In this document: positions 52,916 to 58,920 of the stretch, one piece after another | Layout: the number at the start of each line of letters is the position of its first letter | Position numbering within the stretch: position 1 is the stretch's first letter | Origin: Candidatus Zhuqueibacterota bacterium | Lineage (GTDB): Bacteria; Zhuqueibacterota; Zhuqueibacteria; Residuimicrobiales; Residuimicrobiaceae | Length of the DNA stretch: 64,000 nucleotides | Direction of reading: 5' to 3' | Assembly: GCA_963169875.1 (NCBI GenBank) | Contig: CAUJEL010000131.1 | Location: 1-64,000 of the forward strand | The notes under the pieces: generated by a model | Told to the model about the DNA's origin: nothing | The model's input: only the letters and a program-made list of their open reading frames with translations | Databases searched by the model: none | Program-made: the position numbers and the translations under genes

Positions 52916-55261
52916 ATGTCAGCAGACGCAGATGTATTTATTTGTTACAACCACAAAGATAGAGAAGAAGTTCATCAAATTGTTTCGATAATTAAAAATA
53001 ATTGCAAAGTTGGGGTGTGGTTTGATGAAGAAGATGCACATAAAAAAACGGGATGGATCGCCCAGGTCGAAGAGAAGCTTCGCAAATCCAAGATATTCTT
53101 GATTATTTATGGGCCGAGTGGACTCGGAGAGTATCAAAAAATCGAACGAGATGCTGCAATTGAACTGAACAAGCAGAACAACAATACTCCGATCATCGTG
53201 GGCATAGCTCTACAGGCGACGAAAAAAGAATCCATTCCAACGTTCGCCTATCATTATCCTATCATATTTAAAGAAAACGACAGCGCTTTTGTGGCAGAGT
53301 TAAAAAAAACATGTGATTTGGTAAAAAGCCCTCGTAATAAATCATTGCATCATTATTGGGATGGAGGAATCTTATATTGTAATTTTGATAAATTTTCAAT
53401 GGCCAAGATCGGCACACAAGAAAAAATGACCCTGTTCCTGCAGCACCATGTCGAAAGTTTCCTTCGAAATGTTCCATATGATAAATATGTCGATTTAAGA
53501 GAAGGTGAGGCACTGATATTTTTAAGGAAGCCTGATGATATAAACCAACGAGATGTATTAAGGCGATTATTATTCTTTGGTTTGGGATTACAGTTATCAG
53601 CCTCCACCAATGAATTCTTTATTGGTATTACCTTGCATACAGGACGAGATGCGGTATTTTTGGCGGTAGGTGGCAGTAAAACCCTTACAGGTGTATCCCT
53701 GTCTGAGGCGAGGAGATACATGTCGTTCTCAAATGGAAGGCATTTCTTAATTTCCAGCGATGCACACAAAATACTGGAACATGATTTGCACCCCTCCTCC
53801 ACGGCAAAAAGTAATTTCGCCGACCTCTTTGGAGACGAATTTTCAAAATTTCCAGATTATCCAAAGCTCGAAGGTGAATTCGATTGCAAGGAATTTGTTT
53901 TTCATGATCGCCATAGGCGCAAAGTTTCATTGCATAATCTCTCGTTTCAGAAACAGGATTGCATGATAGGCGATCCCAATTTGCCGAATTATCTGGTAGC
54001 CATCGAGTTTCGTGATAGAAGCCGCGAGTTAAAGCGAGGCCAGGTTTTTATAGAAAGATTAATAGCGGCGGATAGTGTGTTTCTAATTGGTCTTACGGGT
54101 GAATTGACTAAGGATTTTTTGAAATTTGCCCATGAGGAAAGGCTAAAAGAAAATAAAAGTTTTTGGAACAGCATATCTATCATCTTCCCGAGTGAAGATA
54201 CGATCAGGCGCATCCACGAACCTCGGCCTATCGAAGAACGTATTAAAAAATGGCAAGACGGCCGCCGGACAACCTTCAGTTATCTGTATTCATTAGGTCC
54301 GGAACACCTGGACAAATGGAAGTGCCTTGAATTTGATGGCAATTTGCCATTCACAGGTGATCAAATTGTTGATAATGGCATTAGCTCCATACGAATCTCA
54401 CCCGTACTTCCCGGCACTGACATGAGGAAATCTTACAATACGGAAATATTTCAAGACACGCCTGCTTTTGACCTCCTCTCCCAATCGTTTGAGGAAATCC
54501 GAAAACATTCAAAACCTTATGTAGAATGGATTGTCCACGGAGACTTTGATATCGACACAAAAAGACTGAAATACGCGGGTGTGGTTCGCCTCGAAGAAAT
54601 TAGCAATCTCGAACAAAACCGGCAGCGCATCATATGCCAACCTATTGCTCTGGTCATCCTGCATGGTAGAAAAAGTGGCCAGAAAAAAATATATTTGCAA
54701 AAGCGGACAGAATTTAATTCTACGAGCGATATCGGCAAATATTCAAATATTGCGGGGAGGGTCACTGATAAAGATTTAATTGATTCGTTCAAAAATAAAT
54801 TTCCAAAGGCAAAAATTGCGAAAATTATTCACGAATCAGATAATTATATAAAGTTACCAAGTGACGGTTACACAGAAAAATTGATGGCTGAACTTGAACT
54901 TGGATCAAATAAATATCTTCCCGATGAAATGTGGAAACTTGCCGCGCAACGCGAAATTCAGGAAGAGCTTGGATTGATCGTTGATGTCAGCAGGCTAATA
55001 CATCATACGAATATCTATCATCAAAGACAAGACCGGCAAAGTGCCCAGCTATTTCATATCTTTTCACTGGAACTTAAACTGGATAACGACCCGGAAATTA
55101 ACCAGATCGTAAAATTTCGCCCGAACGCCAGTTTAGAACCTTTTACCTTGGCAGATATTGAAAATTTATGGAAGACTAACCAACTCAATTCACTGCTTCA
55201 GGTCCACTTAAAGGATCTATTTATACCGATTTATCAACAGATCATTGGAATCCAAGATTAA
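52916..55261 (+). CDS. TIR / nucleotide-cyclase-like / Nudix multidomain protein
   Basis: The product is 781 residues. Residues 5-130 are a TIR domain (ADVFICYNHKDREEV, GWIAQVEEKLRKSKIFLIIY, GPSGLGEYQKIERDA); Glu77 is a candidate catalytic residue of NAD-cleaving TIRs. Residues 150-290 resemble a class III nucleotide-cyclase fold (ILYCNFDKFS, LREGEALIFL, IGITLHTGRDAVFL, GVSLSEARRYMSFSNGRHFLIS), but the first metal Asp appears as Asn155. Residues 330-575 are unassigned. Residues 577-781 are a Nudix hydrolase with the box core REIQEELGL (679-687) and Glu671 seven residues before it; the usual leading Gly is not in place. GGGAG precedes the ATG. It is the first gene of a four-gene operon. It could make and destroy an ADP-ribose-type nucleotide, by inference. 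Confidence 0.82.
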   Translation: MSADADVFICYNHKDREEVHQIVSIIKNNCKVGVWFDEEDAHKKTGWIAQVEEKLRKSKIFLIIYGPSGLGEYQKIERDAAIELNKQNNNTPIIVGIALQATKKESIPTFAYHYPIIFKENDSAFVAELKKTCDLVKSPRNKSLHHYWDGGILYCNFDKFSMAKIGTQEKMTLFLQHHVESFLRNVPYDKYVDLREGEALIFLRKPDDINQRDVLRRLLFFGLGLQLSASTNEFFIGITLHTGRDAVFLAVGGSKTLTGVSLSEARRYMSFSNGRHFLISSDAHKILEHDLHPSSTAKSNFADLFGDEFSKFPDYPKLEGEFDCKEFVFHDRHRRKVSLHNLSFQKQDCMIGDPNLPNYLVAIEFRDRSRELKRGQVFIERLIAADSVFLIGLTGELTKDFLKFAHEERLKENKSFWNSISIIFPSEDTIRRIHEPRPIEERIKKWQDGRRTTFSYLYSLGPEHLDKWKCLEFDGNLPFTGDQIVDNGISSIRISPVLPGTDMRKSYNTEIFQDTPAFDLLSQSFEEIRKHSKPYVEWIVHGDFDIDTKRLKYAGVVRLEEISNLEQNRQRIICQPIALVILHGRKSGQKKIYLQKRTEFNSTSDIGKYSNIAGRVTDKDLIDSFKNKFPKAKIAKIIHESDNYIKLPSDGYTEKLMAELELGSNKYLPDEMWKLAAQREIQEELGLIVDVSRLIHHTNIYHQRQDRQSAQLFHIFSLELKLDNDPEINQIVKFRPNASLEPFTLADIENLWKTNQLNSLLQVHLKDLFIPIYQQIIGIQD

Positions 55262-58343: not shown

Positions 58344-58649
58344 TTAGTCGGCTGAGGTCTTGAATACATGTTCCAATTTGGGGGGCACATCTGATATTAC
58401 CACAATTTCTTCATTCAGCGCCGTCTCAATCTTGACAATGGTTTTAAGCGTAAGATTGGCGTTGGCCGCTAAGATTTTGCACAACTGTGATTCTTTCATC
58501 CCCAATTGTTGCGCAAATTCCTTCTGCGTCAGATTGCGCTGCTTCAACAACCGGTAGATTTTATCCGCGATTTCTTTTTGTTTTCTGACCAATGTTTTGG
58601 TCGCGGGGGAAACAGTGTCGAGCAATTTGCCGAACTTGGATTTTGCCAT
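58344..58649 (-). CDS. XRE-family antitoxin-like regulator
   Basis: The product is about 101 residues. An N-terminal helical arm is followed by a helix-turn-helix at about 42-95: LLKQRNLTQKEFAQQLGMKESQLCKILAANANLTLKTIVKIETAL, then a short acidic tail. This is the layout of HigA-type antitoxins that follow their toxin. The ATG at 58649 begins one base after a stop codon of a decayed upstream frame, matching a toxin-antitoxin operon whose toxin is broken. Upstream TTG (58661) is an alternative start. Confidence 0.75.
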   Translation of the reverse strand: MAKSKFGKLLDTVSPATKTLVRKQKEIADKIYRLLKQRNLTQKEFAQQLGMKESQLCKILAANANLTLKTIVKIETALNEEIVVISDVPPKLEHVFKTSAD

Positions 58650-58650
58650 A

Positions 58651-58920
58651 CTAATCTTCAACTGTAAAATAAAAGTTGCCTTTCAGAGTAGTACCGGAAA
58701 TGATCAATTCCCGGGTACGGATTCTTTCATCAATTTGCGCCAACAATTCGTCAAGTTTTGATGAGTGGATACTTCTTTACCACCCAGGAATTTGTCCAAT
58801 TCTATTTCAAGCCAGCAAAACCTTTTCGAGCTTTCTGAAAGCAACTCTAAAAAAGAAAAAATCCGTGGACATAAACGATTACTCTGCACAATTTCTTTGA
58901 CTTGGTAAAACTAAATGGTT
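58651..58920 (-). pseudogene. decayed small gene upstream of the antitoxin
   Basis: Two minus-strand frames each look coding in part. One gives CPRIFSFLELLSESSKRF and WLEIELDKFLGGKEVSTHQN, ending at a stop near 58704. The other continues as SKLDELLAQIDERIRTREL and IISGTTLKGNFYFTVED, ending one base before the antitoxin ATG. A frameshift joining them would give one small protein in the toxin position. The family is not recognised. Confidence 0.4.

Follow-up and report, generated by a model that had tools for sequence, protein, structure and literature searches.

The window, that is, the whole stretch of 64,000 nucleotides that was analyzed, contains an ORF which starts with the ATG at 52916, ends with its stop codon at 55261 and encodes a protein of 781 aa, as originally predicted. 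It is the first gene of a tightly spaced four-gene operon, in which it is followed by genes for an ARMT1/DUF89-like protein, an isochorismatase-like protein and HypE (Table 1). The G–C content by codon position of this ORF (0.48/0.32/0.39) is coding-like and similar to that of its operon neighbors. Two significant Pfam domains were detected in the 781-aa protein, and nothing significant was found between them. The predicted union of an N-terminal TIR domain and a C-terminal Nudix domain in one chain was thereby confirmed (PF13676, E-value 4e-14; PF00293, E-value 2e-4 in the whole protein). An AlphaFold model of the full-length protein, built without an alignment, had a mean pLDDT of 33 and was unusable.

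Table 1. Genes and protein regions of the operon and of the surrounding low-GC stretch (positions are those of the window).
Feature	Position	Strand	Evidence
TIR/putative pseudo-cyclase/Nudix protein, 781 aa	52916–55261	+	ORF list; Pfam TIR_2 and NUDIX
TIR domain, residues 7–120	52934–53275	+	Pfam PF13676 (TIR_2); E77 at the catalytic Glu position
Degenerate class III cyclase-like domain, residues ~148–291	53357–53788	+	hhalign with controls, MAFFT placement, low-confidence segment model
Region without family match, residues 300–575	53813–54640	+	Pfam, PHROG, PDB sequence and profile comparisons
Nudix domain, residues ~576–781	54641–55258	+	Pfam on the cut-out domain; PHROG nudix
ARMT1/DUF89-like protein, 482 aa	55267–56715	+	PF01937, 5.9e-11
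Isochorismatase-like cysteine hydrolase, 179 aa	56687–57226	+	PF00857, 1.1e-37
Second HypE, 337 aa	57223–58236	+	TIGR02124, 1.9e-105
HTH antitoxin-like protein	58344–58661	-	PADLOC candidate PDC-M64C, 7e-20
UvrD-like/Schlafen-helicase-like ATPase, 1357 aa	60721–64794 (L114:8722–12795)	-	

At about 52.0 kb, the G–C content drops abruptly from ~0.52 to 0.36–0.44 and remains in this range throughout the rest of the window; the contig itself continues to 65862. It is likely that this low-GC stretch, in which the operon lies together with a large ATPase gene, is acquired DNA. Neither the operon nor the stretch had been pointed out in the original prediction. At the island, neither an Rfam family nor a tRNA was found, and there were no informative repeats. 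The product of the large ATPase gene has TPR-like repeats, with the signs of both the ATPase and the repeats lying below the Pfam cut-offs, and it is possible that this UvrD-like protein is encoded by a defense gene. Beside the HTH antitoxin-like gene, the ORF list holds no intact partner ORF of at least 100 aa.

The ARMT1-like gene starts 5 nt after the stop codon of the TIR gene. The metal motif of its product reads DDNGE in place of DNxGE, and the N-terminal half of the protein has no Pfam match. The isochorismatase-like gene begins within the ARMT1-like gene, with an overlap of 29 nt, and the residues D10, K91 and C124 are present in its product. The idea that this protein is a nicotinamidase that completes NAD breakdown was dropped because the Asp-x-His metal motif of PncA is missing; residues 45–92 of the 179-aa protein contain no histidine. 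The HypE gene, in turn, overlaps the isochorismatase-like gene by 4 nt. Its product is divergent, with HGDGC for HGSGG, keeps the C-terminal PRLC with its Cys, and is ~35–41% identical to 12 other HypE proteins of the phylum. Since the canonical hypD and hypE genes of this genome sit together on another contig (C104), the HypE of the operon is a second copy. To our knowledge, neither HypE nor isochorismatase has a place in NAD immunity.

The match of the TIR domain to PF13676 passes the Pfam cut-off. Within Y73-x3-E77 (Y73QKIE77), E77 occupies the catalytic Glu position of the W/Y-x3-E motif, and its alignment column is common to the TIRs of related genomes. A profile made of four TIRs (that of the 781-aa protein and three from its own and a related genome) had its best solved-structure matches in BtTir, AbTir, which is an NAD+ hydrolase, and Cat1. 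It is likely that the TIR of the 781-aa protein is an NAD-cutting domain. Six TIR matches were found in the source genome, among them two further TIR genes that lie ~9 kb apart on contig C62. According to PADLOC, the TIR weakly resembles ThsB (1.9e-4). This similarity, as well as the 5-nt spacing or overlaps by which the four genes look co-translated, would be in line with a Thoeris-like system, where the TIR produces a cyclic or variant form of ADP-ribose as a signal to the ARMT1-like or HypE product, and the Nudix domain resets it. Such a system is nevertheless unlikely, as no recognized SLOG, macro or SAVED domain was found in any neighbor.

At the other end of the chain, PF00293 matches residues 669–729, and with the domain cut out the match (E-value 1.9e-5) is above the gathering score. 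The PHROG nudix family was also matched (4e-5), and the named Nudix matches, YfcD and MutT, were weak. The catalytic helix EX7REUXEEXGU is intact and reads E671-x7-R679-E680-I-Q-E683-E684-L-G686-L (residues 671–687). The leading Gly of the complete Nudix box, GX5EX7REUXEEXGU, is apparently G614, which is separated from E671 by an insertion of ~50 residues. As both the TIR and the Nudix active site look intact in sequence, it is possible that a signal-maker and an eraser are joined in one chain. The Nudix domain could instead be a ligand-binding sensor (NrtR-type, for ADP-ribose) that controls the TIR effector, with the cyclase-like segment merely dimerizing. Nudix domains that sense ADPr have been described (PMC9503650), and the long G614–E671 insertion splits the Nudix box, unlike in simple hydrolases. 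However, R679, E680, E683 and E684 are all kept, which a pure sensor would not need, and we consider this role of the Nudix domain doubtful.

For residues 150–290, in which the order of class III cyclase signatures had been predicted, no match was found in Pfam, PHROGs or PDB sequences, even at E = 10. A profile was built from 25 real class III cyclase domains encoded by relatives' genomes, and hhalign aligned the segment with it collinearly over 99 columns (residues 187–288), with a score of 28.3 and a single-comparison E-value of 7e-4. The maximum score was 20.1 for 150 shuffles and 23.1 among 500 slices taken from the translations of other ORFs, which averaged 13.1 (sd 2.5), and the reversed segment scored 10.4. 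HMMER with the same cyclase sequences gave 4.9 bits on the same stretch, a value reached by 2 of 2000 shuffles. Since the hhalign score tops all of the shuffles and slices, the resemblance to cyclases is more than chance. The placement by MAFFT spans the entire domain, including ILYCNFDKFS aligned to ILFADIKDFT, and retains the order of the motifs. The model of the segment alone was of low confidence (pLDDT 52, pTM 0.48), and its order of strands and helices (beta-alpha-alpha-beta-beta-alpha-beta-beta-alpha) is that expected for a cyclase fold. Adenylyl cyclases align with this low-confidence model over ~113–124 residues (Z 6–7.4), but unrelated ferredoxin-like folds have equal scores, and GGDEF proteins also align across most of the model (Foldseek, VIA-align; Z 6–7.4). 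The many unrelated folds at similar scores, the hhalign probability of just 26% and the lack of an HMMER match of PF00211 to the segment, which was not reported by the search of its own genome with this family either, would agree with a shared ferredoxin-like topology in the absence of common descent. This explanation appears improbable in view of the profile score above all of the shuffles and slices and of the motif order conserved along the whole domain. Based on these alignments, it is likely that residues ~148–291 descend from a class III cyclase.

The first metal-binding Asp of the cyclase-like segment is replaced by Asn (N156), in agreement with the original prediction. The earlier reading of the GD motif as RE turned out to be out of register: both alignments (hhalign and MAFFT) give G197-E198 at this position, with E198 in place of the second metal Asp. 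In the MAFFT alignment, the base-recognition Lys corresponds to L194 and the base-recognition Asp to S254 or a gap, and S263 takes the position of the transition-state Asn. Hence, among the functional residues of an active class III cyclase (two metal Asp, the base Lys/Asp, and Asn/Arg), the transition-state Arg, kept as R267, is the sole survivor. Judging from these residues, canonical cyclase catalysis by the segment is unlikely, and it is most likely a pseudo-cyclase. The suggestion that it senses or binds a nucleotide rather than makes one was thus supported with respect to synthesis, for which N156 and E198 are unfavorable, but ordinary ATP/GTP binding is doubtful too because the base-recognition Lys and Asp are lost. 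Class III cyclases act as dimers, and a dimerization or regulatory role of the segment is at least as likely as nucleotide sensing or binding.

The ~245–280 residues separating the cyclase-like and Nudix parts, described as unassigned in the original prediction, have no Pfam, PHROG or PDB sequence match, and residues 300–575 gave no match to the PLDc_2, cyclase and TIR profiles. A PLD-like domain, suspected in this region from a sequence pattern, was not supported by a PLDc_2 profile (score 10.7 versus a shuffle mean of 12.7), and the TIR profile gave no support for a TIR domain there either. A weak-similarity search for the middle region in the genomes of the phylum returned chance-level matches only.

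Searches of 63 genomes of the class and 82 of the phylum revealed no relatives of the non-TIR part of the 781-aa protein, and none were found in plasmids, phages or viral contigs or by a limited pattern scan of genome contigs; the query for the genome and viral contigs was the full protein. Viral contigs scanned with the ARMT1-like protein, with HypE or with a motif-steered alignment yielded no relatives, and tblastn against plasmids and phages returned nothing relevant. In the phylum sample, the ARMT1-like protein likewise lacks close relatives. In genome contigs, 38 stretches matched a DNA pattern for the DDxGE-type motif of ARMT1, none of them an ARMT1-like protein, and a search of 395 genomes from another phylum with the ARMT1-like protein yielded just a generic DUF89. 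Since the genome-contig scans reach close relatives only, the rarity applies to the phylum rather than to bacteria in general. In the open-access literature, no paper joining TIR, Nudix and DUF89/isochorismatase was found, which does not prove absence, nor were the terms TIR-Nudix and TIR-cyclase. With three of the four genes coming from metabolic enzyme families, and with the C-terminal cysteine retained in the HypE of the operon, a non-immune operon might be considered, with a role in metabolism or maturation linked to nucleotides or NAD, in which TIR and Nudix would serve metabolite turnover or scaffolding. The low-GC island, the lack of any trace in related genomes and the NADase type of the TIR argue against such an operon, which we regard as a rather unlikely explanation.

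The reading preferred here, plausible rather than probable, is that the 781-aa protein is a TIR NAD-consuming conflict effector with built-in modules for control (the pseudo-cyclase and residues 300–575) and clearance (Nudix). The analysis shows the domains with their residues, the operon and the island; the NADase activity, the trigger, the Nudix substrate and the immune role are what we infer. It is established that TIRs act as effectors or make signals and that Nudix proteins process ADPr (PMC9503650). This reading is favored because the TIR has a Glu at the catalytic position and is closest to the NADase TIRs BtTir, AbTir and Cat1, because the Nudix catalytic helix is intact, and because a gene of a phosphatase family (ARMT1/DUF89-like) comes next. 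The homology of the segment to cyclases, with the metal and base residues lost, points to a regulatory pseudo-cyclase, and the drop in G–C content and the patchy occurrence (no relatives in 82 phylum genomes) fit a mobile conflict gene. On the other hand, no known defense system was recognized at the operon by PADLOC, which counts against this reading, as do the weak named matches of the Nudix domain and the lack of a known role of HypE and isochorismatase in NAD immunity. Under the preferred reading, the pseudo-cyclase and the middle region would form a regulatory or assembly part that senses a trigger; several chains would be brought together, and the TIR would cleave NAD+. The Nudix domain may then hydrolyze an ADP-ribose-type product to AMP and ribose-5-phosphate, a step that would either limit the signal or render the NAD loss irreversible. 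Such a conflict operon would probably be anti-phage.

If both the TIR and the Nudix domain are active, an ADP-ribose-type molecule would be made and destroyed by the same chain, and the timing of NAD-based immunity would be directly testable via point mutation. A more elaborate version is a single-chain NAD cycle, in which the TIR makes an ADP-ribose-type signal, the pseudo-cyclase and the middle region read the trigger or the signal, and the Nudix domain erases it. Working alongside an ARMT1-like enzyme and a HypE paralogue dedicated to it, such a chain would amount to a new kind of conflict system, which seems distinctly unlikely.

We judge the 781-aa protein to be a new form among TIR-based NAD systems. 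AbTir, BtTir and the CRISPR-associated TIR Cat1 likewise have a TIR with the catalytic Glu position, but their sensor parts differ, and none of them is known to us to share a chain with a cyclase-like or Nudix domain. The catalytic helix is shared with ADP-ribose-type Nudix hydrolases, from which the protein is distinguished by the long insertion inside the Nudix motif. The signal maker of Thoeris, the TIR protein ThsB, is weakly similar to the TIR described here, but no ThsA-type SLOG, SIR2 or macro effector lies alongside; no ThsA-like gene was found among the scanned neighbors, and the pair of ThsB and ThsA is thus incomplete. With class III nucleotidyl cyclases (PF00211), the segment shares the collinear profile alignment and the topology of the low-confidence model; it differs in the replacement of both metal Asp residues, the base Lys and the transition-state Asn (D1 to N156, D2 to E198, Lys to L194, Asn to S263), and stays below Pfam detection. 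TIR and class III cyclase domains also occur together in Pycsar, which consists of a separate active cyclase protein and a TIR (or TM) effector with a cNMP-binding domain. The 781-aa protein departs from this arrangement, as its cyclase part is fused and devoid of catalytic residues, and no cNMP-binding domain was detected by Pfam. A TIR protein whose regulatory part derives from a worn-down class III cyclase would link two signaling superfamilies that are otherwise found, as in Pycsar, in separate proteins.
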